Shown here: one piece after another, positions 4,192 through 19,459 of the stretch
How the letters are laid out: each line of letters starts with the position of its first letter
Position numbering within the stretch: the stretch's first letter is position 1
Origin: a virus
Strand: one strand, 5' to 3'
Virus record (IMG/VR): IMGVR_UViG_3300002145_000150
Coordinates: 1 to 22,442 of that record
DNA length: 22,442 nucleotides
The notes under the pieces: generated by a model
Seen by the model: only the letters and a program-made list of their open reading frames with translations
The model's database searches: none
Told to the model about the DNA's origin: nothing
Position numbers and translations under genes: made by a program

Positions 4192-4539
4192 ATGAATTTG
4201 TGGTTCCGTCTTGCCAGCCACTTACACATGCCGCTCCGCGATTGCATGGAGCGGCATACTCACCGGGAGTTTTTAGCCTGGAATGAGTGGCTTGATGATC
4301 AATGGAATCAGCCGACGCGTTCGGATCACTATCTCATGCAGATCGCTCAGGAGGTTCGGCGGTCATTTGCAAAGAAGTGTCCGAAGTTCTCAGCCTTCAA
4401 GATTCCGTTCCAGACTCCAAAGCCAGCAAAGCCTGTCTCCCCGGAAACGATCGCTCAACGAGCAGCCATCGCAAAGGCGATTTGGAGCCAGCGACTCGGT
4501 AGAAAGGTAGAGACAGATGGCGAAGGAAACGGAACTTGA
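4192..4539 (+). CDS. Tail assembly chaperone, frameshifted extension (T part of gpGT-like)
   Basis: The frame encodes 115 aa from the ATG, but most likely it is made as the C-terminal 121 residues of a 257-aa G-T fusion (3767-4174 then 4174-4539 in the -1 frame). It contains WFRLASHLHMPLRDCMERH, close to the 'LAxxLGxpldxle..mt..Ef..W..' opening common in T-type extensions and their equivalents, followed by FLAWNEWLDDQWNQ. A basic, Pro-rich helical tail follows. An AAAGG lies before the ATG, so limited independent initiation cannot be excluded. It overlaps the tape measure start by 23 bases. Confidence 0.75.
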   Translation: MNLWFRLASHLHMPLRDCMERHTHREFLAWNEWLDDQWNQPTRSDHYLMQIAQEVRRSFAKKCPKFSAFKIPFQTPKPAKPVSPETIAQRAAIAKAIWSQRLGRKVETDGEGNGT

Positions 4540-7500
4540 GCGACTGGTGATTCGGCTCGTTGGTGATGGATCGTCTTACCAGAAGATGCTCCAGACGGCT
4601 GAAGCAACAACGGCATCAGCGGTCAAATCTATTGCCGAACAAACGCGATCGATCGGCAACAAGTTGTCATTATTCGTGACAGCTCCGCTTGTGGCGATCG
4701 CCGCATCTGCCCGCTCACAGGTCAGCGAGTATAAATCAGCACTGAGTCAGATGGTTGGTCTTGTCGGACTCTCTGAGCAAACCGTAGAAGGCTTCTCGAA
4801 AGACATTCAGCGGATCGCGATTGAGACCGGGAAAGCGCCCGTTGAACTGGCAAACGCGATGTTCTTCATCACGTCCGCAGGGCTTCGCGGAGCTGCCGCA
4901 GTAGAGGCTCTGGGGGTTTCGGCGAAAGCAGCATCGGCAGGTCTGGGCGGGACGCAGTCAGTCGCTGATGCGGTGACGTCAGCAATGAATGCTTACGGGC
5001 ACTCTAATCTCTCGGCGACTCGTGCGACTGAACTGCTGACTGCTGCCGTACGCGCTGGTAAAGCGGAAGCGTCGCAGTTTGCGCCGCAACTTGGCCAATT
5101 GCTCCCACTGACGTCCTCAATGGGCATTGGGTTTGATCAGGTCGCTGGATCATTGGCGTTTCTCACGAAGACAACTGGTAACGCGTCGCTCGCGGCCACT
5201 GGACTCAAGGGTGTCCTCAACGTTCTTGTTGGCGGATCGAAAGAGTCGATCAAGAACTTCGAGAAGATGGGATTCTCGTTGAATGACATCCAGGAAATGG
5301 CACGAAAGCAAGGGCTGCCGAAGACTCTGATGACCATTAGAAAGGCAGCGGAAAAGGCCGGTCTTCGCCTCAATGAGCTATTCACGGATACAGAGGGTTT
5401 GACGGCTGCGTTGCAATTCACTGGGGCAGCCGCTGCTGACGCTCAGCAAGTGTTTAATGACGTCGCGAATTCAGCCGGTATCGTTGACGAGGCGTTCACT
5501 GCCGCCGCTAATACCACGAAATTCCAGTGGGCAAAAGCGATGGCTGAGTTCCAGGTCATCCTCATTCAAATCGGTGAGATTCTCGTTCCGTTGAGCACTG
5601 GAATGCTGGACTTGGCTGATATCGGTCTGGCGACATGGCGAGGTCTTTCGGCAGAAGGCAGGAAGTTCATCGTCATCGCAGGAGCGATCGCGGCTTCTAT
5701 TGGGCCGACACTGATTGTGTTGTCCAGGCTGCCAATGGTCCTCGGGTTAGTAAAAAGCGGATTCCTTGTTCTGATTTCTCCAGCCGCACGATTAGTGAAC
5801 GCATTCATCACGATTGGTTCGGCTGTCACGACCGGAGTGCTTCGTACCGGGCAATCTATTTTCGGATGGTCCAGATTCGTTGGGCAATCGTTTTTCACGG
5901 TCACTCAACAGGCAGTAAAGATGAGTGCCGGAGTGATAGTAGCCGTCGCGAGTCTTGGAGCCAGATTACGTGGCCAGTTTAGCGGACTGTCATTTGGAGA
6001 CATCTGGACGAGCGGAATTGTCAAAGCAAAGCTCTGGCAAACTCAAGTGACCAGTATTGTTCAGTCCGTCATCGGAACGAGCAAGAAGTTTGGTGCTGAG
6101 GCAGGCTATTGGCTCCGGCGTCCGTACGATTATCTCGTGGCTGTTGCTCCGGGACTTGTTCAGCGAGTGGTGTCAATCACCACATTGGCCGCCGATAAGA
6201 TAAAACTCGCGTGGTTGAAGGTTTCTGGTGTTGGCATTTCTGCCGGACAGGCAATTCAGTCCCGCTGGGCGCAATCCTCTGCGGCAATCGCATCAATCAG
6301 TAAGAACACGTGGCAATCGGTCACTTCTACTGTGATGCGGGCGACACAACGAATTAGCGGTGCATCGGCACGACTCAGTCAACCTGCGTTGAGTGCGTTT
6401 TCAAGCCTTGCAACTAAATCACAGGTGATCTTTTCTGGCATCTGGTCTCGATTGAGCCCACCCATTGCAAACATCAAACAGAGAATGAGTCCGGTCGTTG
6501 CACTCTTCAGTCAAGACGCTCAGCGGATTGCGAGGGGGTTTCAGATCGCGGCGACAACAATCGCTCCGGCATTTTCCGCTGCTGGGAAGCTCGCATCACG
6601 TGCTGTGATGGTATCAATGAATGCGGCATTCACTGCGGTGAAGGTCGGTGCGAAAAGTGCTGGCACAGCTATTCGATCAATGGGCGGCGGGCTTATGCGA
6701 ATCGTTGATGCAATTGGAACGCTCAGCATGGTGCTGGCGTCCGCTGGCATGGCTACGGGGTTTCTTGGGACATTGGCCACGATCGCACCGATTCTTCTCG
6801 CTGTTGTTCCAGTCGTCTCAATTGTCGGAGCGGCGTTCGCCGCAGTGATGAGTCCGGTCGGACTGATCATCGCCGGTGTATCAGCGATCGGCCTGATCAT
6901 TGCAAAACTCGTGAGCAACGTAGACCTGTCCACAATGTGGACGCGAGGTCAGGAGTCAATCAACGAGTACGTTGCCGTCGTGTCTGGCTTCTTTGCGAAC
7001 TTCGAAGCCAACATGAAGATGCTCTACGCTTGGACAAGCAATCTTTGGACATCATTTGAATCGTCCGCAATCGCAGTGTGGAATGGAGTGTCTGGATTCA
7101 TCGGCAACTCAATTAGCGTGATCCTGTCATACCTTGCGGAACTCAGCCCGAATCTGATTGGACTATGGGATAGCGTCACAATCGGAGCTTCCGAATCATG
7201 GACATACGCACTGGAAATGGTGAAGTGGTTCTTTAGTTCCGCCGTTGGATTCTTCGGGAACTTCTCACAGAACATGCAGATTCTGTGGCAATTCATGACG
7301 GCGAACTGGCGCACGGTGCTGGCTGATATCGGAAACATGATCAAACTCACTGCTCAAAACATGGGCAGCAATTTCGGTGTTGGGGTGTCAATTGCTTACC
7401 GCTTGTTCCTCGCATTTGGCGGATGGCTGAAAGGACTGTTGAAGGGCGTTTTAGTCAAAATTTTCAGTGTGGACATGCTGAACGCTGCCGTTTCTGGACT

Positions 7501-8455
7501 CAAGAAACTTGTCGCCGTGTTCACTGACATGGGCAGTGGTTTCTACGAACTATTCAAGGGGTTCTTCACTGGTGCAACGGACGGCCTTGACCTGAACAAA
7601 ATGCTTGACAACGCAGTCAAGGATATTGATGCCGGGGCTGCGAGCATTAACTTCGCAGACACTGCCGCAAAGATCATCAGTGAAGAATCAGCGAATCTAA
7701 AGAGCCCACTGGACGGGTTTACGTCACAGCTCACGAAGCTGCCTGAATTCAATCTTGAAATGGGCGACGGATTAGCACTCCCTAAATTCATCACAAAACA
7801 GGTTGATGAAGCGAGTAAAGTTGCAGAAGACGCCAGTGCTGGCATTGGTGAGGCCATCCCGAAGGGCATTGGTGATGCTGCTAATGCCGTCGATGATGCT
7901 ACGAAATCCGTTAAAAAGTTTGGTGACATCAACGCGAAGGCCACTATCGGCGTGACCGGAGTTCAGGGGGTTGCGCGTGGCACATCGGAAGCACTCTCGC
8001 ACATTCAGGAATACTTGCTCGGTGCAAAATCACCAGCACCGACACTCCCCGGAGCACCGGCAATACCAGGCAGCCCGGTGACAGTAGGTGACCTGAAGAA
8101 AACGGACGCGGCACTTCGCATTGCGGAAAGAACGCCTGACATCAGCCATCTGATTCCGCAAGAGCGAGTCGCAGCAACGACGAACCTGACGCAGTTGCGA
8201 AGTATAGAACGCTCTTTCGCACTGACGGACCTGACGCCGGTCAAGGAGGAATATGGCAACGCGAGACAAACGGCGGACCTGACGGCGCTCCGGGAATCAA
8301 TCCAGATTGACCCGACGTTCGACATCAATGCCGGAGCCACTGAGACAAACGCTGAAGAGACAGCCGAACGCCTTGACCGATTGATTGAGGTCAGCGAGAT
8401 GCAGCTTGAAGTCGCGAAATCTAAGGGCGGATTGATACTGGCAGGACTGGAATAA
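4517..8455 (+). CDS. Tape measure protein
   Basis: At 1312 aa this is by far the longest protein, sitting right after the chaperones. Residues about 20-330 match the TP901-type tape measure core: a coiled helix (SSYQKMLQTAEATTASAVKS), ALSQMVGLVGLSEQTVEGF, then ELANAMFFITSAGLRG, and the ATGLKGVLNVLVGG segment. Hydrophobic stretches near residues 382-420 and 738-800 are the membrane-active type common in tape measures, which help DNA cross the host membrane. The C-terminal 250 residues are polar and acidic. It sets tail length; at about 0.15 nm per residue this implies a tail near 0.2 micrometre (inference). Its TAA overlaps the next ATG. Confidence 0.9.
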   Translation: MAKETELERLVIRLVGDGSSYQKMLQTAEATTASAVKSIAEQTRSIGNKLSLFVTAPLVAIAASARSQVSEYKSALSQMVGLVGLSEQTVEGFSKDIQRIAIETGKAPVELANAMFFITSAGLRGAAAVEALGVSAKAASAGLGGTQSVADAVTSAMNAYGHSNLSATRATELLTAAVRAGKAEASQFAPQLGQLLPLTSSMGIGFDQVAGSLAFLTKTTGNASLAATGLKGVLNVLVGGSKESIKNFEKMGFSLNDIQEMARKQGLPKTLMTIRKAAEKAGLRLNELFTDTEGLTAALQFTGAAAADAQQVFNDVANSAGIVDEAFTAAANTTKFQWAKAMAEFQVILIQIGEILVPLSTGMLDLADIGLATWRGLSAEGRKFIVIAGAIAASIGPTLIVLSRLPMVLGLVKSGFLVLISPAARLVNAFITIGSAVTTGVLRTGQSIFGWSRFVGQSFFTVTQQAVKMSAGVIVAVASLGARLRGQFSGLSFGDIWTSGIVKAKLWQTQVTSIVQSVIGTSKKFGAEAGYWLRRPYDYLVAVAPGLVQRVVSITTLAADKIKLAWLKVSGVGISAGQAIQSRWAQSSAAIASISKNTWQSVTSTVMRATQRISGASARLSQPALSAFSSLATKSQVIFSGIWSRLSPPIANIKQRMSPVVALFSQDAQRIARGFQIAATTIAPAFSAAGKLASRAVMVSMNAAFTAVKVGAKSAGTAIRSMGGGLMRIVDAIGTLSMVLASAGMATGFLGTLATIAPILLAVVPVVSIVGAAFAAVMSPVGLIIAGVSAIGLIIAKLVSNVDLSTMWTRGQESINEYVAVVSGFFANFEANMKMLYAWTSNLWTSFESSAIAVWNGVSGFIGNSISVILSYLAELSPNLIGLWDSVTIGASESWTYALEMVKWFFSSAVGFFGNFSQNMQILWQFMTANWRTVLADIGNMIKLTAQNMGSNFGVGVSIAYRLFLAFGGWLKGLLKGVLVKIFSVDMLNAAVSGLKKLVAVFTDMGSGFYELFKGFFTGATDGLDLNKMLDNAVKDIDAGAASINFADTAAKIISEESANLKSPLDGFTSQLTKLPEFNLEMGDGLALPKFITKQVDEASKVAEDASAGIGEAIPKGIGDAANAVDDATKSVKKFGDINAKATIGVTGVQGVARGTSEALSHIQEYLLGAKSPAPTLPGAPAIPGSPVTVGDLKKTDAALRIAERTPDISHLIPQERVAATTNLTQLRSIERSFALTDLTPVKEEYGNARQTADLTALRESIQIDPTFDINAGATETNAEETAERLDRLIEVSEMQLEVAKSKGGLILAGLE

Positions 8456-9902: not shown

Positions 9903-10616
9903 ATGGAGAACGGGTACGCACTCTCAAAGCAGGACGTCGAGACGTTGCGTGAAGTCGTGCGGATCGTTCGCAGTAATCCGCAACTGTTGAAGAACCGTTC
10001 CAGCTCAATTTCCACGGCGAGGGACGTCGAGGATCACCAGGCTCCCGAGGTGTATATCGCCTATCCGCAGGAGTCGTCCGGCATCCCGGAACTCGCGCAT
10101 GTCGGTTCCGTATCGGGTTCTGGAACGACTATGGTTGCGCCGCGTGACATGCCTGGCAAAGCCCGATGTGATATCTTTAAGATCACGCGAGACGACCAGG
10201 GCAATCCCGTATTAGTGCCGATTCAAAAGTCAGTCACGGTATACAACCTGACGACGTCACAGTTGGATCAGGACTGGCTCGTGGTCGTAAGAGACAAGTC
10301 TGGAAACTGGCTGGCGACAACTGGCGGGGGTGGTGGTGGTGGAACGATTCAGTTCACGATTCTGAGTGCGGATTGTGAGACCGGATGCGTCGAAGCAGTG
10401 GTAACCGTGTTGGGTGCCGGCGAATCATCAGTCGAAGTTGGTGACACTGTGAACGTCTATGATGGACTCGGGTGTTTCTTCAATGTTCGCGAAGACCTGT
10501 TGATCGGATTGAATGGGATTGCACATCGTTTTCAAGGCGACGATCCATGTACAGTGTATGACTCTGAATCAACACATTGGCGAGTCGCCGCATTGTGTTG
10601 CTCGGTGGGGTGCTAA
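9903..10616 (+). CDS. Tail protein with N-terminal helix, poly-Gly hinge and Cys-containing C-terminal domain
   Basis: The product is 237 aa with a GAGG SD. An N-terminal helix (SKQDVETLREVVRIVRSNPQ) is followed by a Ser-rich linker. Residues about 49-140 form a beta domain (VTVYNLTTSQLDQDWLVVVR). A run of seven glycines sits at about 141-147. The C-terminal domain carries paired cysteines (DCETGCVEAV near the front; CCSVGC at the very end). I recall this modular layout from planctomycete prophage tail regions, but not a function. The poly-Gly run probably works as a flexible hinge between a tail-bound half and an exposed half. The stop is directly followed by the next start, a GTG. Confidence 0.55.
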   Translation: MENGYALSKQDVETLREVVRIVRSNPQLLKNRSSSISTARDVEDHQAPEVYIAYPQESSGIPELAHVGSVSGSGTTMVAPRDMPGKARCDIFKITRDDQGNPVLVPIQKSVTVYNLTTSQLDQDWLVVVRDKSGNWLATTGGGGGGGTIQFTILSADCETGCVEAVVTVLGAGESSVEVGDTVNVYDGLGCFFNVREDLLIGLNGIAHRFQGDDPCTVYDSESTHWRVAALCCSVGC

Positions 10617-11972
10617 GTGTTACTAACAAGACCAAAAGCACAGTGTTCATGCGGGGAATGCTACGAACGAGTTACTGGATGCAGTGCGTGCTCTGGTTGC
10701 ATTCCGGCAACAATGTGCGTCACGCTGCGAACCAACGAGCAGTGCTGTCCATTCTCGACCGGGATATATCACCTCAATGGAACTCGCTGGCTCTCAGAAT
10801 CTGAGATAAGTTGGTGCGGCGGCATTGTTGATCTGAAAATCCTCTTAGAAGAAGTCGGTGACTCATGCTATTTTGTTGTGCGTGTTCGTTACGTGGACAG
10901 TGACGATTATGTCACACTTGCATATGAAGAGTTAGGAACGACCGACTTCTCAGTTGATTTGTCGGAGTCCGAGTACGAGCTGGAAACAACACTTCGAGTG
11001 TTTCCGAAATCAGGCGTTCTGAATCCTAACATCTACACGGATTGCGGCACATGTCTCGATAGCTGCACGTGCCTGCCATACACTCTTTGCCTCACTTATG
11101 TGACCGAGGGAGATTGCATTCCATCACGTTTTCGTAAACCAACGTCATGGAACGGATGCAATGGATGGGACACAGTTGTCTTCGCGTTCAGCAAGTTGGA
11201 CGGGACGGTTGAGCGACGTGAGGTTACTATCGCGCTTGGCGAGCCGCCGTTATGCGGGCTTGAAATCCGCGTAACAAAAGATGACTACGACGATACTGTC
11301 TTCACATATCCACTGCTGAATCCACAGAAGGCTTGCAAAGTCGATTTCTTCGAAGTCATTCAAAACAATCCGGACATTCTCGGGTTGGAGACTTTGAAGA
11401 TCACCGCAGATTGTTTGTGTCTTGATTTGCCAGACGAAGAGTGTCCGCTGGCATGCCCGCAAGTGCATGATCTGTGTGAGTTGGAACCTGTCATCGCCTC
11501 ATTTATGGTTGATGGATGTGACATATTAGACGGCGTGTCAAGAACGAATGACCCATTCGGTCCGCCGACACTCGATGATGCACCAGGATATACGCGATGT
11601 CCATCGCAAGTATGGGAATGGGATTTCACCGTAGAGGTGATTTGCGAATCCGGGTTCGGTGCGGTCAGTGGTCTGCCATATGAAATACGTGGCGACTATG
11701 TCATACACATGCGGCTATATTACCCATTGTTATCTTGTGAAGATGTTGATGTCAATGATTTAACACCAGACCCGACACGATACATTCTAGTTTGGGAAAT
11801 CGCGGCTAATTCATGTGGCACAACATGGACAGGGTTTGACTTTCCTGACCCGGCGACAGCAAATTGCTCCCCGTTTTTTCTGGAGTTCGAAATCACACCC
11901 AGTGGGGAAGATCAGCCGTCCTGTTATGGGTTGTGTTGTCAGGATACGGTTCGAGTTAGGATTACCCAATGA
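10617..11972 (+). CDS. Cysteine-rich tail fibre-like protein with duplicated module
   Basis: Start is GTG at 10617, right after the previous TAA, with GGGG upstream. The 451-aa product has about 34 cysteines (over 7 percent). A module is duplicated: C28-IPATM-C34-VTLRTNEQ-C43 and C152-LPYTL-C158-LTYVTEGD-C167 have identical cysteine spacing (6 and 9), and both are followed by about 80 residues with a CYFVVRVRYVDSDDY / CGLEIRVTKDDYDD segment. A third, diverged Cys region begins near residue 266 (CLCLDLPDEECPLAC). There is no signal peptide. The last gene before the sugar-enzyme cassette and last in the tail block, it is probably a fibre or tip protein stabilised by disulfides or metal; that is inference. 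Its base composition is lower in GC than its upstream neighbours. Confidence 0.6.
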   Translation: MLLTRPKAQCSCGECYERVTGCSACSGCIPATMCVTLRTNEQCCPFSTGIYHLNGTRWLSESEISWCGGIVDLKILLEEVGDSCYFVVRVRYVDSDDYVTLAYEELGTTDFSVDLSESEYELETTLRVFPKSGVLNPNIYTDCGTCLDSCTCLPYTLCLTYVTEGDCIPSRFRKPTSWNGCNGWDTVVFAFSKLDGTVERREVTIALGEPPLCGLEIRVTKDDYDDTVFTYPLLNPQKACKVDFFEVIQNNPDILGLETLKITADCLCLDLPDEECPLACPQVHDLCELEPVIASFMVDGCDILDGVSRTNDPFGPPTLDDAPGYTRCPSQVWEWDFTVEVICESGFGAVSGLPYEIRGDYVIHMRLYYPLLSCEDVDVNDLTPDPTRYILVWEIAANSCGTTWTGFDFPDPATANCSPFFLEFEITPSGEDQPSCYGLCCQDTVRVRITQ

Positions 11973-13375
11973 CATTGCAAACATTTGAGTGCAACTGCCC
12001 GTTAGGAAGAACCGTTATATGCGAAAGGCATGGAGTCGTTAAATCGTCGCGTGAGGTGCAAATTTGCCAAGGCAAAAACGTTAAGGATGAGGTTCGTGAG
12101 CAATGGCTAAAGCAATGGGGTGAAATCCCTGATTCTGTCGAAACACAGCCAATTGTTCGATCAGAGAAACAATTGCAGCCGCGACAGAATTATGCTTTTA
12201 GTGCATTGACGCCAACGGATATTCCTTGTGAGTTCCGTGGTGACGTTATTCGTGAGGCACCGTGTACCGTGTGTGGTTCACGTAACAAAAAAACATCAAT
12301 TTACAAGTGCGATGATCCAGCGAATTCAACGGGCGAATGCACTTTCGTGCATAAGATTCACGGAATGAGATCATGCCAACGGTGCCCAATAGGGCAAGGG
12401 GCCTATGAACGGTTGATGGATACGATCGCGGTGAAGAAAGAGACACTGCGAACATCTGGGCGTGGCGGTATAAAATTTAGCGGAAAACGAGGCGGCCCCT
12501 TCAATCCGAGTGAGGAAAAGCCGAAGTTCATCTCACGCCGCCAACTCGCAGACGACATCCTGCTCCTTGCTCAGCGAATTCCGTCTAATACATCACGAAT
12601 CATCGGCGTTGCGAGGTCTGGCGTGCCAGTGGCGGCGCAGGTAGCTCTGTATCTGCATCTACCGCTGACGATCTTTCGTCAGAGCACGTACGACATGATC
12701 GAAGCCGGCAATGGTTGGCGGCTGACCGGCAATACGGGTGGAGACGGGCCGCCTGTCGTCATCGACGATACGTGCATGAGCGGCAACTCCTTCAAATTCG
12801 TCATGCCGGTTGTGAAGAAAGAATTCCCGGATGCCGTCTCAGCGTGTCTCTACTGCAATCCGGCGGCCAGGGTGAAGCCGGACATGTGGATTCACGATCT
12901 TCCGTGGCCGCATTTCCTTGAATGGAACATGTTCAACTCGGTGATGACTGACAGCCTTGCCATAGACTTCGATGGAATTCTGTGCCGAGATTGCTACCCT
13001 GGCGAGGATGACGACGGGGAGAGGTACTTGAACTTCATTCGTACGGCGACGCCGCTCTATCCGATCCGAAAAACGAAGGTAAAGCTGGTTGTCACCGCGC
13101 GGCTGGAGAAGTACCGGAAAGAAACAGAAGGCTGGCTGAAACGGAACGGAATCGCGGTCCAACAACTCGTCATGGCACCGTATCAAACGCTGCGAGAACG
13201 GCAGCAGCACGACATGGCAAAGTTCAAAGCCAAGCATTACACGCAGTTTCTCCAGCAAAATCATCGAGTAAAGCCGCCATGTTTCGTTGAGTCTGACCCG
13301 CATCAGGCTCGTCGCATTCACGAACTGACGCGGGGGATCGTTATCTGTCCTGGAACGGGGGAATGTCATGCTTGA
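11969..13375 (+). CDS. Fusion: Cys modules + phosphoribosyltransferase + HAD-type phosphatase
   Basis: The product is 468 aa, from an ATGA overlap. Residues 1-50 hold a small Cys module (CPLGRTVICERHG); residues 87-139 a second one with CTVCG, an ECTF segment and CQRC, probably zinc-binding. Residues about 190-325 are a type I PRTase: IIGVARSGVPVAAQVAL and the PRPP loop PVVIDDTCMSGNS (262-274). Residues about 329-460 look HAD-like: AIDFDGILC (331-339, nucleophile Asp333 and Asp335), LVVTARLEKY (motif II Thr), a Lys-rich segment near 418-422, and FVESDPHQA (439-447). A PRTase makes or cleaves a nucleotide-type N-glycosidic bond with PRPP, and a HAD partner can dephosphorylate the product; the substrate is unknown. 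GC content rises sharply near base 12480, close to the domain junction. Confidence 0.75.
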   Translation: MTLQTFECNCPLGRTVICERHGVVKSSREVQICQGKNVKDEVREQWLKQWGEIPDSVETQPIVRSEKQLQPRQNYAFSALTPTDIPCEFRGDVIREAPCTVCGSRNKKTSIYKCDDPANSTGECTFVHKIHGMRSCQRCPIGQGAYERLMDTIAVKKETLRTSGRGGIKFSGKRGGPFNPSEEKPKFISRRQLADDILLLAQRIPSNTSRIIGVARSGVPVAAQVALYLHLPLTIFRQSTYDMIEAGNGWRLTGNTGGDGPPVVIDDTCMSGNSFKFVMPVVKKEFPDAVSACLYCNPAARVKPDMWIHDLPWPHFLEWNMFNSVMTDSLAIDFDGILCRDCYPGEDDDGERYLNFIRTATPLYPIRKTKVKLVVTARLEKYRKETEGWLKRNGIAVQQLVMAPYQTLRERQQHDMAKFKAKHYTQFLQQNHRVKPPCFVESDPHQARRIHELTRGIVICPGTGECHA

Positions 13376-13931
13376 TCGTCAGAAAGCTGTCGAAAGCTGT
13401 TATCTCATACCCGGCTGGTGTTGGCCGGTCGAACTTGGTGCGATCTATGACACGATCGCCGAAAGGAAACCACAGACTCACGTTGAAGTCGGGAGCTTCT
13501 GCGGACGGAGTTTGTTTGCGGCGGCAGCAGCGATGCCTGATAAAGGACAGCTGATTGCCATTGAGCCTTTTATCTACTGGGATAATTTACAGAACCATTT
13601 GCTGGGTCTGAACTGGTGGAAGCAGGTATTTAACACGACGCTCAACAGCATCCGAAGCCACCGTCCAGACCTGGAAATCGTGCATTTGGAATTGCCATCG
13701 ATCAAAGCGGCTTTAGAAGTAAGACAAGCTGACTCCGTCTATATCGATGCCTGCCACGAGTATGCTGAGGTATCATCAGACATTCAGGAGTGGGGGGCAG
13801 TGGTCGGCAATGGGCTTCTCTGGGGGCATGATTACTGTGCGAGCCAGATGGGAGTCCTCGACGCCGTCAACATGTCACTGCCAGGAGATTTCACAGTTCT
13901 GGATGGTACACGCATATGGGTTCGGAAATGA
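13368..13931 (+). CDS. Class I SAM-dependent methyltransferase
   Basis: The product is 187 aa and overlaps the preceding gene by eight bases, with a GGGGGA SD. Residues 38-48 (HVEVGSFCGRS) are the SAM-binding glycine motif in the 'EVGSxxGrS' form of the Methyltransf_24 type. LIAIEPF (62-68) holds the acidic ribose-binding position. DSVYIDACHEYAEVSSDI, then WGHDY, is the family's 'D.i.iDg.H.y..v..D...' strand. The substrate cannot be read from sequence; this family often methylates sugars or nucleotide-sugars, and neighbours here are sugar enzymes. Class and cofactor are fairly sure; target unknown. Confidence 0.75.
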   Translation: MLDRQKAVESCYLIPGWCWPVELGAIYDTIAERKPQTHVEVGSFCGRSLFAAAAAMPDKGQLIAIEPFIYWDNLQNHLLGLNWWKQVFNTTLNSIRSHRPDLEIVHLELPSIKAALEVRQADSVYIDACHEYAEVSSDIQEWGAVVGNGLLWGHDYCASQMGVLDAVNMSLPGDFTVLDGTRIWVRK

Positions 13932-14518
13932 AAGCGATCCTTGCCCTTAAAGGGCCGTCCGCGCATGCCGCATCTGACGTGATTAGCGATTTGAAGCCCG
14001 ATATCATTGCGACTGTCAACGATGCGATTTATCTTCTTGATAAAGACACAGCAGTTGACTACTCATTTTTTACTCATTGGGCGTCTTCATCAGAAGACCG
14101 TCGTCTTCACCCACATGCAAGCTGCCGAATCAAGACGTTTGTGACTCCCGAACTTTCAGCTACATTCCCGCACAACGATTGGGTCAAATCAGAAGGCCAC
14201 AAGTGGATTCGATATGAACACCACACCTGCGACGGCGACCCAGCCGCGTTATCCGCCCGCATATTTTGTGGCGGCATTACGCATCACCACACGGCGAGCG
14301 CCGCTGTCCACTGGTTGTGCAAGAATTTGTCGCTTGACTCGCTTTACGTTATCGGCCTTGATGGTGGCGACCTCAGCAACTATGCAACAGGTGTAAAGCC
14401 AGCGTGTCACAAAGACACGATGCCAGGCGACGTGCTTGATGTATTCCGGAGAGTCATGCTGGACCTGATACCAATCCTGAATCGTGTCTATGGGACAGAC
14501 ATAAAGGTCATAACATGA
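13928..14518 (+). CDS. Rossmannoid DUF115/MptE-like or sialyltransferase-like protein
   Basis: I take the ATG at 13928, which makes an ATGA overlap with the methyltransferase; an upstream ATG at 13916 would add four residues. From 13928 the product is 196 aa. It starts ILALKGPSAHAASDVISDLK, the 'l.GpSl' opening of DUF115-type proteins, then DIIATVNDAIYLL and YSFFTHWAS (the typical 'd.a.Nda...' arrangement). Near the middle ARIFCGGITHHHTASAAVHW, then DSLYVIGLDGGDLSNYA. Relatives include motility-associated and sialic-acid-type transferases, so a role in handling an activated nonulosonic-type sugar next to the cytidylyltransferase is plausible but not shown. Confidence 0.5.
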   Translation: MKAILALKGPSAHAASDVISDLKPDIIATVNDAIYLLDKDTAVDYSFFTHWASSSEDRRLHPHASCRIKTFVTPELSATFPHNDWVKSEGHKWIRYEHHTCDGDPAALSARIFCGGITHHHTASAAVHWLCKNLSLDSLYVIGLDGGDLSNYATGVKPACHKDTMPGDVLDVFRRVMLDLIPILNRVYGTDIKVIT

Positions 14519-15189
14519 AAGTGATCGTCCCTGCGAAGTCAACGAGCACGCGGGTAGCAAATAAAAACTGGCGACCGTTCTTCAATGGAAAGAATCTGGT
14601 TGCGCTTACGATTGAAAAGCTGCTGGCGGCTGGATTTGACAAAGGTGATATATACGTCAGCAGTGACTACGTCAGCGGACTTGATTCACTGCGATCGACA
14701 TACGGGACTCATTCACTATTCCGAAATGAAAGGTTGTGCGACAACGAGACGCCGCTTACTGAGTGGATACGGCACACGACAAGCCAGATTGATTTTTTTG
14801 ATGAAGTGGCATGGGCTCAAGTATGCGATCCACTCTTTGACGAATACAAAGAGGCAGTTGATTGCTGGAACAACCGTGTCGGACATTATGACAGTCTGTG
14901 CGTGATCTACCGCACAAAGCAATTTGCGTTGGACTCATACCGAAACCCGGTCGGGTGGCAATTCGGCGACTATCACAAGTCCAGTCAACACCTGCAATAC
15001 ACGTATCTGATGCCGTTCACGTTTTCTGTGTTGACGCGTCAGTCTTTGGAGCGTTGCCCATACCATATCGGAATGTCACCGCTTTGGTATGAAAGTGATC
15101 GCCATACAATCGACATTGACACTGAGGCAGATTTCGACTTCGCCATGTCGCTTTACGAAGTCATGCACTTGACAGGTAAGAAACAATGA
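14515..15189 (+). CDS. NeuA-like sugar cytidylyltransferase
   Basis: The product is 224 aa with an AAAGG SD and an ATGA overlap. The N-terminus IVPAKSTSTRVANKNWRPF follows the CMP-nonulosonate synthetase pattern IxPARxxSxRxxxKNxxP, then LTIEKLLAAGF and IYVSSDYVSGL. The C-terminus HTIDIDTEADFDFAMSLYE carries the classic 'iDIDtxxDlxxAe' ending (DID at 200-202) that binds metal. Such enzymes join a sugar acid to CTP, giving a CMP-sugar. 'AKSTSTR' in place of 'ARGGSKR' shows divergence from the housekeeping form. No nonulosonate synthase is in the window, so the sugar must come from the host or elsewhere in the genome. Confidence 0.75.
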   Translation: MKVIVPAKSTSTRVANKNWRPFFNGKNLVALTIEKLLAAGFDKGDIYVSSDYVSGLDSLRSTYGTHSLFRNERLCDNETPLTEWIRHTTSQIDFFDEVAWAQVCDPLFDEYKEAVDCWNNRVGHYDSLCVIYRTKQFALDSYRNPVGWQFGDYHKSSQHLQYTYLMPFTFSVLTRQSLERCPYHIGMSPLWYESDRHTIDIDTEADFDFAMSLYEVMHLTGKKQ

Positions 15190-16046
15190 TCTGGGCATAT
15201 GCCGTCACGACCTGCACGCAACGACTCTATACAACGTTTCCATACACTCTATCTGATCTGGCGATGGCTGGTTTCGATGAGCCACACGTGTCACTGGACA
15301 GCAACCAGCTATGCAGTCTTGAGCAAGTCGCCGGATGCAAGTCACTCACGACTCACTATCCGGCCCTCGGGGCGTTCGGCAACTGGTTTGCGACGCTCTG
15401 GGAACTCCGAGTCCGGAACCCGAAGGCGACGATGTTCGCCATTTTTCAGGATGACGTCATCGTCACGTATGGGCTGCGGGAGTATCTGGAGCGGAACCCA
15501 TGCCCAGACAACGGCTACATGAACCTGTTCACAGCACCTTCTAATCAGGACTTGTTCGGCAGTGCCGATGATGTGAACTGGAAGGAAGCCAGAACGCTCA
15601 CTGACGAGACTGATCTCCAGACCGGGCGAGGGGCTCTTGGCCTGGTGTTTTCGAAGGACGTCGTCGGGAAGTTGCTCGCGAGCCCGATCCTGACTGAGAA
15701 GCCGCTGACGGTCAGAAACCCAACGAAGAACATCGACGGGGCAGTTGTTCAGGCGTTGAACCGTGTCGGAGTTCGCGAGTACGTTCACCGCACAAGCCTG
15801 GTCCAGCACCGCGAAGGGGAAAGCACTGTCGGTCGATTAGTTCATCGACAGGCGACATCGTTCGAGCCGTATATCACCGGCCTGACTCACCGTGAAGAGG
15901 ATTCGCAAGCAACTGATCTGCCGGAGCAAGTAGATGAGACGCGACGAACTGAGGACAGTGCAGGAGATTTGCAGCCGGCACCCGAAGCCGACGATACCGC
16001 CGCTGGAATCACCGCCGTATACGCCGAAGAACAGCAGCCAGAGTAA
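15186..16046 (+). CDS. Glycosyltransferase, GT-A-like
   Basis: The product is 286 aa, ATGA overlap with an AGG SD. The sequence IWAYAVTTCTQRLYTTFPYT, then ATMFAIFQDDVIVTYGLREY (82-101), fits a GT-A fold with QDDV as the metal-binding acidic motif, a form seen in GT25-like and phage glycosyltransferases. A middle part has GYMNLFTAPSN and GRGALGLVFSKDVVGKLL. The last 60 residues are low-complexity, acidic and probably disordered, and the final 113 bases overlap the next gene in another frame. The donor could be the CMP- or NDP-sugar from the neighbouring enzymes; that is inference. Confidence 0.65.
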   Translation: MIWAYAVTTCTQRLYTTFPYTLSDLAMAGFDEPHVSLDSNQLCSLEQVAGCKSLTTHYPALGAFGNWFATLWELRVRNPKATMFAIFQDDVIVTYGLREYLERNPCPDNGYMNLFTAPSNQDLFGSADDVNWKEARTLTDETDLQTGRGALGLVFSKDVVGKLLASPILTEKPLTVRNPTKNIDGAVVQALNRVGVREYVHRTSLVQHREGESTVGRLVHRQATSFEPYITGLTHREEDSQATDLPEQVDETRRTEDSAGDLQPAPEADDTAAGITAVYAEEQQPE

Positions 16047-17004
16047 GCTCGGGCTCGCTGTCGAGTCGATGAAGTTTCATACGACTGACGAAGGCTGGCA
16101 GATTTTCGATGGACTGGAGTCAGCAGGCTACACGCTCTGCGGGCATGGGCTTCCGGAAGGCTCAACGTCAGTCCCCGACCTGCTCGCCAGATATTCACCG
16201 CAGACGCTCGTGCTGCAAGATAAACGTGAATGGGACGTGCAGCGTAAAGACTTCCGCGATGCGTCCGCTCGATTCACCGGTGTTGAAGCACTCCGTGAAC
16301 GCGACGACGTGTTCAAACTCACGATTCTGAAGGACTCACATCAGCGGCCAGAGTATCATCGTGACTCCGCACAAGAGATCGGCTGTCATGCCTGGATCGT
16401 CTACTATCACCCGACGATCGTTTCCCATCTGGCTCCTTACGTCCGGACTCAGCACCTCGTTCGAACGTACCACACGCTGAACCCTGCTCACGTTCCGGCA
16501 TACTCAATCGATCGGCTCGATCGGTGCCTGCTGTCAGGGGCAGTGTCCGGCGCGTATCCACTGCGGCAACGGATGGTCAACAACCTGCGAGCGTTCAAGA
16601 CGATCGACTATCAAAAGCATCCCGGTTACCACCGGCAAGGCTGCTGTACTCCGGAGTACCTCAAGATGCTCTCCAGGTATAAGGTGTCGTTCTGCACGGC
16701 GAGCCACTATGGCTATCTGCTGCGGAAGATCATTGAATCAGTCGCTTGCGGTTGCCGTGTGATCACAGACATGCCCGTCGATGAAGTCGTTCCTGAGATT
16801 GACGACAACCTGATCCGTATCAATCCGATGGATTCAATCCATGCGATTGAGGATCAGATTGCTTATGCGATCGTCGATTATGATCCAGAGCGACAAGAGC
16901 ACTTCGCAAAGCGAGCTATTGAACGATTCGACTATCGATTCGAAACGGCACGACTTGCGGGTGAAATTGAGAACCTTCGACTGATCTACACAGGGGACAA
17001 TTGA
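15934..17004 (+). CDS. Glycosyltransferase, GT-B type (group 1-like)
   Basis: The product is 356 aa from an ATG with a GGAG SD seven bases upstream; it overlaps the previous gene by 113 bases in a different frame. The alternative start (ATG 16069, residue 46) would lie after the previous stop but has no SD. Residues 1-38 are basic and Pro-rich. The N-terminal Rossmann half includes SPQTLVLQDKREWD. The C-terminal half holds YLKMLSRYKVSFCTASHYGY, then KIIESVACGCRVIT (265-278, the E-x7-type nucleotide-sugar motif) and DEVVPEIDDNLIRI, as in Glyco_trans_1_2 proteins. Donor and acceptor unknown. Confidence 0.7.
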   Translation: MRRDELRTVQEICSRHPKPTIPPLESPPYTPKNSSQSKLGLAVESMKFHTTDEGWQIFDGLESAGYTLCGHGLPEGSTSVPDLLARYSPQTLVLQDKREWDVQRKDFRDASARFTGVEALRERDDVFKLTILKDSHQRPEYHRDSAQEIGCHAWIVYYHPTIVSHLAPYVRTQHLVRTYHTLNPAHVPAYSIDRLDRCLLSGAVSGAYPLRQRMVNNLRAFKTIDYQKHPGYHRQGCCTPEYLKMLSRYKVSFCTASHYGYLLRKIIESVACGCRVITDMPVDEVVPEIDDNLIRINPMDSIHAIEDQIAYAIVDYDPERQEHFAKRAIERFDYRFETARLAGEIENLRLIYTGDN

Positions 17005-17589
17005 ATGAGGATTTTCGTCACGGGCACTGGCCGTTGTGGCACTTGCACGGCCTACCAGGCACTCAGCCACGCAAAGGGATTCACGGTAGGGCATGAGTCC
17101 CGCGCCGGTCTCTCAGAACATCACGAGTACCCGGACAACCACATCGAAGTTTCATCGCAGTTGGTGATGGAGATACCGCTCCTGCTCCGGAAGTATCCGG
17201 GGGCGTATTGGGTTCATCTGCAACGCGAACGAAAAGCGACCGTCAATTCTCTGATCATGAACTGCGAAGAGTCGATGGCCGCTTACTCGCTGCAATGGCT
17301 TCAGAGGCCAATTGCAGCGGTCGACGATGAAGACAGTGAACTCCGTGGCAGGCAGCTCCGGGCGGCTGCGTCGATCTACTATGACAACGTCAACGCGATG
17401 TTGTCGAAGATACTGCCATCGTTCCGGACCTATTATCTGCCGTTGGAGTATGTTGATGGTAAATGGGCCGACTGCTGGGAGTTCCTGCAACTGACAGGTG
17501 ACTTCGAAGCCAGCCAGCGGGAGTGGAGCAGGCAATACAACGCGGCGGAATTCCGAGGCCGTGACAACTACTCAGGAGCGAATCAATGA
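17005..17589 (+). CDS. Sulfotransferase-like P-loop protein
   Basis: The product is 194 aa with an AGGGG SD, starting right after the previous stop. FVTGTGRCGTCTAYQALS (4-21) is the 5'-phosphosulfate-binding loop of PAPS sulfotransferases (GxxRSGTT-like with Cys in place of Ser). YPGAYWVHLQRERKATVNSL fits the 3'-phosphate-binding strand 'hlvRdPrxxxxSl'. YYLPLEYVDGKWADCWEFLQ is the usual helix near the C-terminus in the short bacterial family. It would move sulfate from PAPS to a hydroxyl or amine, here possibly a glycan. The short length leaves little room for an acceptor domain. No PAPS-making genes are seen, so PAPS would be host-derived. Confidence 0.65.
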   Translation: MRIFVTGTGRCGTCTAYQALSHAKGFTVGHESRAGLSEHHEYPDNHIEVSSQLVMEIPLLLRKYPGAYWVHLQRERKATVNSLIMNCEESMAAYSLQWLQRPIAAVDDEDSELRGRQLRAAASIYYDNVNAMLSKILPSFRTYYLPLEYVDGKWADCWEFLQLTGDFEASQREWSRQYNAAEFRGRDNYSGANQ

Positions 17590-18626
17590 GAGAGCAGGAA
17601 GCGTTGCAGCAGATGGTGTCGCCGTCACAACGGCGAGCAGGCAAGCCGCGCGGCGGAGTGATTCAGATTCACCTGACTCGGGCGTGTGACTTGGCATGCT
17701 TTGGCTGCACTCAGGGGAGCAACCTGAGATGCCCGGCATCATTCATCTCATTGGAAAACTTCGAACTGGCTTGTAAGTCGCTTCGGAACTACTTCGGGGT
17801 GACGGGAATTTTTGGCGGAAATCCGAGTTTGCACCCTGAATTTCCGTCCATCTGTGAGATTCTCCGGAAGTACATCCCGAAGAACCGGACAGGCATCTGG
17901 TGCAACCATCCGCGCGGACATGGCAAGATCATGGCTCAGACTTTCGATCCGGGCTGCAGCAACTTGAACTGCCACCTGGTTCAGGAAGCATACGACGAGT
18001 TCAAGCGTGACTGGCCGGAGTCTCGACCGTTCGGGCTCGATAAGGACTCACGGCATTCGCCGCCGTACGTGGCGATGCAGGACGTGTTCCGAAAGGCGTG
18101 CAACGTCTGCAAAGGGACCGGCGATCTTCATGACGATGATGGTGAGTTGCAAAACTGCCCGTATTGCCGGGGAACTGGATCACGAGTAGACGATGAGGCG
18201 TGCTGGGAGAAAGCGGCCAACTGCGACATCAACAAACACTGGTCAGCGATGGTTTGCGAGATCAAAGGCGAACTCTACGGCTACTTCTGCGAGATCGCCG
18301 CAGCTCAGGCGATACTCCACCAGAACGACCCGGCATGGCCGATCACCGGAATTCCGGTAGCGACGAATCCGGACTGGTGGAAGCTTGGCATGAAAGACTT
18401 TGCGAACCAGGCTCGGCTTCACTGCTTCGCTTGCGGAGTCCCACTGCGAGGATATGGGGCTCTGGCACAAGGTGGCAGCGAGCAGAAGGAGCAGGTTTCA
18501 GTGACTCATGCTGACATCTACAAGCCAAAGAAGAAAGATCGGCTGGTTCAGATTGTGGCGGACATCAATGAGTTGGACTCGCACGATTTGAAATTCACCG
18601 AGTACCTGCAAGGGGCAGCGAAGTGA
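17586..18626 (+). CDS. Radical SAM enzyme with DnaJ-type zinc insert
   Basis: The product is 346 aa, ATGA overlap with a GGAG SD. The radical SAM cluster motif is C34-DLA-C38-FG-C41 (CX3CX2C) after IQIHLTRACDLACFGC. GIFGGNPSLHPEF (75-86) replaces the usual GGE SAM motif. Residues 172-198 carry two CxxCxGxG repeats (CNVCKGTG and CPYCRGTG), as in DnaJ zinc domains. A further cysteine set, C213, C224, C235 and C280-x2-C283, recalls SPASM-type auxiliary clusters. Radical SAM enzymes cleave SAM to a 5'-deoxyadenosyl radical for difficult C-H chemistry; here peptide, sugar or nucleoside substrates are all possible. It does not match a family I can name. Confidence 0.7.
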   Translation: MREQEALQQMVSPSQRRAGKPRGGVIQIHLTRACDLACFGCTQGSNLRCPASFISLENFELACKSLRNYFGVTGIFGGNPSLHPEFPSICEILRKYIPKNRTGIWCNHPRGHGKIMAQTFDPGCSNLNCHLVQEAYDEFKRDWPESRPFGLDKDSRHSPPYVAMQDVFRKACNVCKGTGDLHDDDGELQNCPYCRGTGSRVDDEACWEKAANCDINKHWSAMVCEIKGELYGYFCEIAAAQAILHQNDPAWPITGIPVATNPDWWKLGMKDFANQARLHCFACGVPLRGYGALAQGGSEQKEQVSVTHADIYKPKKKDRLVQIVADINELDSHDLKFTEYLQGAAK

Positions 18627-18721: not shown

Positions 18722-19459
18722 ATGCTCGATAATGCCGTCATTGTCTGCGTTGACTACTCGGACTTTCTGGCCGTCACGCTGCCATACAACCGGCACCACT
18801 TCAGCGAAGTGCATGTAGTGACGTCGATGACGGACAATGAGACGGAACAGGTCGCGAATGAGAACCTCGCCCATGTCTGGCAAACTGACCTGTTCTACGC
18901 TGACGGTGCCGACTTCAATAAGTGGCGAGCGTTAGAGTGGGCTCTGGACAGCATCGGTCGCGACGGCTGGCTATGCCTGATGGACGCCGACGTTTTATGG
19001 CCAAAGTCGATCCAGTATGACTTCGAACCTGGCAAGCTATATACCCCGATGCGGCGGATGTTCAAAGACCTCGCGAAGCCAATACCGCAGGAATCCGAAT
19101 GGTGCCGCTATCCGATCCATCGGAACGTCAATGAGTGGGCCGGGTACTCACAGATATTTCACGGATCTGATCACCACTTGCCAGCTCCACCGTGGCATGA
19201 GACCAACTGGAAGCACGCAGGCGGGGCTGACTCGTTCTTTCAGTTCCAATGGGAGCCGGCATCGAAAGTGCGTCCACCGTTCGAAGTGCTCCACCTGGGC
19301 GAGGATGGTGCGAACTGGTGCGGGCGAGTGACTCCGCGATTCGACGGCACGATTCCGGACGCGGCGGCTGAGCGACAGAGGAAGCTGAAGGGCTATTTCA
19401 CAGGACGCCGGAGTCATGCGGACCAGGCTAAGCGATTCGATCATGAGAAGCTGATGTGA
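18722..19459 (+). CDS. Glycosyltransferase, GT-A-like
   Basis: The product is 245 aa. It starts with a GT-A-like beta strand (AVIVCVDYSDFLAVTLPYNR), then VHVVTSMTDNET, and has WLCLMDADVLWP (83-94) with the DAD metal-binding motif typical of GT-A glycosyltransferases. Ahead of that, DFNKWRALEWAL resembles the 'fNKg.al..gl' helix of similar phage-encoded enzymes. HLGEDGANWCGR near the C-terminus may supply a second metal ligand. No SD is obvious. It ends the plus-strand cassette. Donor and acceptor are unknown. Confidence 0.65.
   Translation: MLDNAVIVCVDYSDFLAVTLPYNRHHFSEVHVVTSMTDNETEQVANENLAHVWQTDLFYADGADFNKWRALEWALDSIGRDGWLCLMDADVLWPKSIQYDFEPGKLYTPMRRMFKDLAKPIPQESEWCRYPIHRNVNEWAGYSQIFHGSDHHLPAPPWHETNWKHAGGADSFFQFQWEPASKVRPPFEVLHLGEDGANWCGRVTPRFDGTIPDAAAERQRKLKGYFTGRRSHADQAKRFDHEKLM

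Follow-up and report, generated by a model that had tools for sequence, protein, structure and literature searches.

Twitch-type radical SAM enzymes in phage glycan cassettes carry a DnaJ-like hairpin as an optional insert

Among the closest described systems for the enzyme considered here are two dehydrogenases. SpeY, a twitch radical SAM dehydrogenase with a solved structure (PDB 7wzv), belongs to the spectinomycin pathway. BtrN is the 2-deoxy-scyllo-inosamine dehydrogenase (PDB 4m7t), and its twitch domain has one cysteine before a hairpin, one after it, and two after the following helix (PMC6231123). The reaction of BtrN is a two-electron alcohol oxidation, and a low-potential auxiliary cluster is the proposed electron acceptor (PMC9012708). 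Within the twitch/SPASM group, function is hard to predict (PMC6231123). Radical SAM genes are also found in phages, those of Campylobacter carrying them in clusters with an amidinotransferase (PMC2853527). Literature searches for radical SAM enzymes that contain a DnaJ-type insert, or that are encoded in a flagellin glycosylation island, gave nothing relevant among the papers listed.

The gene studied here lies in a stretch of viral DNA of 22,442 nucleotides (IMG/VR record IMGVR_UViG_3300002145_000150, positions 1 to 22,442), which we call the window (Table 1). A preliminary description of the window had proposed an unusual radical SAM enzyme with a DnaJ-like (CxxCxGxG)2 insert, encoded in a phage tail/glycan region, and this much is supported. 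The gene overlaps the sulfotransferase-like gene before it by 4 bases, its start codon sharing bases with that gene's stop (ATGA), which makes it part of an operon-like run starting after the tail genes. No tRNA was found in a scan of the window. Two other stretches of the window deserve mention. At 9903-10616 is a protein with a glycine run, which precedes a long cysteine-rich protein of 451 aa (10617-11972) found downstream of the tail genes. The latter has no Pfam or PHROG match. It may belong to the tail tip, as a component rich in disulfides or metal, and is a candidate for the protein that the glycan cassette modifies. The frame at 11969-13375 is an unusual fusion of a CxxC-rich N-terminus with a phosphoribosyltransferase domain (E 8.9e-8), and its C-terminus resembles polynucleotide kinase/phosphatase (phrog_415, E 3.4e-4).

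Table 1. Features of the window discussed in the text, in order of position.
Feature	Coordinates	Strand	Remarks
Tail tape measure protein	4517..8455	+	phrog_991, E 1.4e-47
Methyltransf_24 methyltransferase	13368..13931	+	38.3 bits, above cut-off
Cytidylyltransferase-like (CMP-sugar synthase type)	14515..15189	+	CTP_transf_3, 27.4 bits, above cut-off
Conserved cassette gene, unknown family	15186..16046	+	homologues in 23 loci; no Pfam match
Glycosyltransferase (Glyco_trans_1_2-like)	15934..17004	+	E 1.6e-4, below cut-off; homologues in 26 loci
Sulfotransferase-like, directly upstream	17005..17589	+	Sulfotransfer_3, E 1.6e-4, below cut-off
Twitch-type radical SAM enzyme gene	17586..18626	+	346 aa; ATG at 17586, stop at 18626
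CX3CX2C motif, CDLACFGC, residues 34-41	17685..17708	+	direct reading; invariant in 58/58 members
DnaJ/anti-TRAP-like hairpin insert (putative zinc hairpin), residues 169-202	18090..18191	+	CxxCxGxG pair; optional; 4/58 members at this site
Twitch domain core	18222..18434	+	C213, beta hairpin 221-233, C235, helix 269-280, C280, C283
GT2-like glycosyltransferase, downstream conserved partner	18722..19459	+	GT family 2 Pfam models matched

From its sequence, the CX3CX2C motif is predicted to supply the ligands of the SAM-binding [4Fe-4S] cluster. The two CxxCxGxG units, CNVCKGTG at residues 172-179 and CPYCRGTG at 191-198, are present as the preliminary description had them; when the protein was shuffled (n=200,000), one such unit arose in 0.66% of cases and two in 0.002%. 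To collect relatives, viral contigs were scanned three times with protein guides and once with a DNA pattern, and genome contigs were scanned once. The resulting set comprises 58 distinct members including the window protein, to which the others are ~41-55% identical. Conserved in 58/58 are C34, C38, C41, C213, C235, C280 and C283, together with Q27, T42, Q43, W105, N107, S125, N126, N128, H130, H157, W219, S220, E236, W264, W265, K315 and Y340; conservation of the motifs CTQGS, SNLNVH, AYDEFKR, QIxxTRACD and NCDINKHW is partly built in, since the search patterns included them, and C235, C280 and C283 lie outside every pattern. Loss of the CX3CX2C motif in close homologues had been named as one possible objection to the proposal; all of the members keep it. 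A profile search also turned up two bacterial proteins at a far greater distance, and these share the same motif set. Annotated phage records gave no close relative and one distant match, from Synechococcus phage S-SCSM2R. In cellular genomes, a close homologue was found in 1 of 369 genomes sampled from the class of L031 and in 1 of 392 sampled from the phylum of L029, each time the starting genome itself, and the phylum of L029 gave three distant homologues as well.

The Pfam model Radical_SAM (PF04055) scores just below its cut-off on the window protein (26.7 vs 29.5 bits), is matched at E up to 1 by 52 of 53 family members, and exceeds the cut-off in 4 of the 8 phage records searched. The GGxP-type motif of the radical SAM barrel is present as GGNP at residues 77-80. 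NCBIfam gave no named family: all matches are far below the cut-offs, ArsS, HxsC, SbtM and MoaA being the most frequent, and those of the window protein cover its N-terminal part. Profile searches of the PDB gave weak matches only, including QueE and BlsE, with SpeY not listed. Judged by the Pfam, PHROG and NCBIfam searches, the enzyme is covered by no named family. By structure it falls near a known group, that of SpeY and BtrN.

That placement comes from an AlphaFold2 model (53-sequence alignment; mean pLDDT 95, pTM 0.91), which superposes on solved radical SAM barrels and in which the inserted hairpin is folded. In Foldseek against the PDB, SpeY is the top match (E 2.6e-7), the next other entries being near 2e-4. 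In VIA-align, SpeY has a Z of 17.1 (257 residues, 3.4 A) and BtrN 12.6, and lower rows include SuiB (10.3), BlsE (10.0), anSME (9.8) and DesII (8.2). A separate model of another member, L068, gives the same order (SpeY 17.2, BtrN 12.4). The separate later set of cysteines that had been picked out is genuine and no oddity, being that of a four-cysteine twitch domain. C213 comes before a hairpin, whose strands are residues 221-226 and 229-233 in the model, C235 after it, and C280 and C283 after the helix, which is the published twitch layout. The twitch core is predicted to bind one auxiliary [4Fe-4S] cluster. The seven-cysteine SPASM motif, CX9-15GX4C..CX2CX5CX3C..C, is absent from this region, which conserves only the four twitch cysteines.

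The hairpin has a narrower distribution. An insert of ~33 residues with the (CxxCxGxG)2 pair is found at this site (site 1) only in the window protein, L002, L034 and L059. Members without it run directly from SRHSP..VAMQDV to DE..RW, and L007 has an unrelated insert there. In the model the insert consists of four short strands (pLDDT ~91) and, from the order of secondary-structure elements, comes after the final segment of the barrel and ahead of the helix that leads to the twitch domain. The Pfam models DnaJ_CXXCXGXG and Anti-TRAP both match over it at sub-threshold scores, the DnaJ model (PF00684) reaching 15.6 vs 32.7 bits; the insert has two repeats rather than four. By sequence, its best match among solved structures is the cysteine-rich domain of E. 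coli DnaJ (1exk, E 0.0099); against anti-TRAP the best family member has E 2.6e-4, and small phage proteins of unknown function are also matched (phrog_33780, E 3.3e-5), with further short viral matches by structure. The motif suggests that the insert binds zinc. At a second site, immediately ahead of WW264-265, L007 (263-291 aa) and L068 (227-255 aa) have CxxC hairpins of their own and L054 has a partial one; the second-site insert of L068 is modeled at pLDDT ~50 with no strands. The best tree requires three changes to account for the four carriers at site 1, but the grouping of all four in one clade is not rejected either (AU p 0.16); repeated gain, loss or exchange of the insert may all be compatible with the tree. 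Since the insert is absent from 54 of 58 members, the catalytic function of the family cannot depend on it, and its presence in only four makes it an optional decoration, probably a structural or docking element.

Gene neighborhoods were compared across the relatives. A homologue of the GT2-like partner is found in 40 of 50 non-redundant loci, in 33 of them within 2 kb downstream, and is missing from 10, some of which are incomplete. Its commonest Pfam match is a GT family 2 model (19 of 34 members). Methyltransf_24, CmcI/FkbM-like methyltransferases and capsule-type glycosyltransferases are other frequent neighbors. Three members are themselves fusions, with GT2 in L040, Methyltransf_24 in L047 and Anp1/GT2 in L063, and the glycosyltransferase fused in L040 is a relative of the downstream partner in the window. 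In a Chromatiaceae MAG (L031, 2036-15936), the homologue adjoins genes for FliD, two flagellins, an MptE-like protein (the Maf-type domain), GT2 enzymes and Methyltransf_24, and by its content this looks like a flagellin glycosylation locus. Among the distant Planctomycetota homologues, L103 adjoins GT9 and Wzt/Wzm-type exporter genes, and L104 is joined to a TPR region ending in a GT9-like part and has a DegT-type aminotransferase nearby. The distant match in S-SCSM2R (E 1e-4 over 82 residues) itself finds SpeY as the top hit in a sequence search of solved structures (E 5.7e-7). Its gene has as neighbors glycosyltransferases, 2OG oxygenases, an AHBA-synthase-type aminotransferase and an inosamine amidinotransferase. 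The gene set of that locus (L096, S-SCSM2R 231862-235529) is suggestive of an aminocyclitol-like or guanidinylated glycan. In the L004 record a second, stronger Radical_SAM match (61.4 bits; G003:89851-90414) lies ~8.7 kb from the family member.

The reading that we favor, by a little over even chances, is that the phage glycan cassette includes a twitch radical SAM enzyme that oxidizes a sugar-type hydroxyl as SpeY and BtrN do, with the zinc insert as an option. The glycan neighbors and fusions and the SpeY/BtrN fold make modification of a sugar by radical chemistry, one of the earlier suggestions, the best fit. In sequence, the resemblance to SpeY extends over the N-terminal region only (68 columns in hhalign, probability 31%), and no full-length sequence link was obtained, so the reaction is proposed from fold and context. 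In this mechanism, the CX3CX2C cluster would cleave SAM to give a 5'-deoxyadenosyl radical, which would abstract hydrogen from a hydroxyl-bearing carbon of the substrate, be it a sugar, nucleotide-sugar or glycan. From the radical so formed, one electron would pass to the auxiliary cluster, with C213, C235, C280 and C283 as its ligands, and a ketone would result, as it does in SpeY and BtrN. The neighboring enzymes could next methylate, sulfate or transfer this keto-sugar, the simplest acceptor being a tail protein of the virion. In this scheme, the DnaJ-type hairpin would be an optional zinc-stabilized insert before the helix to the twitch domain, probably with a structural or docking role.

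Peptide maturation and other chemistry are likewise carried out by enzymes with twitch and SPASM folds, which counts against reading the protein as a dehydrogenase. A sugar-acting radical SAM enzyme of the same cassette might instead catalyze epimerization, deoxygenation, decarboxylation or cyclization. Such an enzyme would share all of the glycan context, namely the fusions, the glycosyltransferase partner and the bacterial loci, and the decarboxylase BlsE and DesII are indeed among the structural matches. We nevertheless consider another reaction fairly unlikely, because the alcohol dehydrogenases score clearly higher (17 and 12.6 vs <=10) and members that oxidize their substrates typically have a fully ligated auxiliary cluster. 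The structural list also contains the SPASM/twitch maturases SuiB, anSME and SkfB; the tail genes are adjacent, and the fused or neighboring methyltransferases could act on protein, all of which would suit a maturase of peptides or proteins, acting on an amino-acid side chain in a tail protein. However, the model has no N-terminal peptide-recognition domain, its barrel beginning at residue 25 after one short helix, and among the neighbor clusters (ORFs of at least 80 aa) there is no conserved small peptide gene. The fusion partners, moreover, are glycosyltransferases and a methyltransferase, and SpeY and BtrN rank above the maturases. A maturase is thus improbable.

The preliminary description had treated the DnaJ-type pair as the defining feature of the enzyme and supposed that it might bind a peptide or a zinc-structured partner. 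The hairpin would then mark a distinct radical SAM class, a proposal to which its confident prediction and its occurrence at the same site in four members lend some substance, as do the CxxC hairpins at the second site in L007 and L068. The members that lack the insert, however, retain every catalytic and twitch residue, and the model of L068 gives no confident fold for its hairpin at the second site. The pair was accordingly rejected as the defining feature; nothing was found in support of a peptide or zinc-structured partner, and a distinct class of this kind is very hard to credit.

If the favored reading, oxidation of a sugar-type hydroxyl, is true, phages own an oxygen-independent sugar-oxidizing chemistry in cassettes beside their tail genes, related in fold to enzymes of aminocyclitol antibiotics and also present in a bacterial locus for flagellin glycosylation. 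There would then also be a concrete enzyme with which to test whether uncultivated phages glycosylate their virions. In the zinc insert, nature offers a small experiment on inserted domains, as members with and without it allow direct comparison. A more speculative and on balance unlikely extension is that many uncultivated tailed phages bear a tail-tip glycan with a sugar ring oxidized by a dedicated twitch enzyme, DnaJ-like zinc hairpins at two loops docking it in some lineages to a glycosyltransferase or a tail protein.

Each of the known systems resembles the enzyme in part. The insert is like the DnaJ cysteine-rich domain and anti-TRAP (RtpA) in having CxxCxGxG units at much the same spacing, but DnaJ has four units, whereas here there are two, set within an enzyme without any other part of DnaJ. 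Campylobacter phages CP220, CPt10 and WX1 and S-SCSM2R likewise have phage-borne radical SAM genes, there in clusters with an amidinotransferase gene, one gene of WX1 being annotated 'BtrN protein'. Their sequence similarity to the family is only distant, over ~80 residues, and the S-SCSM2R protein is without the zinc insert; these aminocyclitol-type clusters are distant analogies rather than members. BtrN is ~100 residues shorter in its solved chain (246 vs 346) and 12% identical, yet its twitch domain has four cysteine ligands in the same arrangement. SpeY comes from an antibiotic cluster rather than a phage glycan cassette, is 13% identical over the structural alignment, and has no zinc hairpin in the stretch compared (its residues 34-223). 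In spite of these differences, it shares the CX3CX2C motif and the barrel and twitch domain over 257 residues, and its first twitch segment, C..W...GW.Y.C, resembles by eye the segment from C213 to C235.
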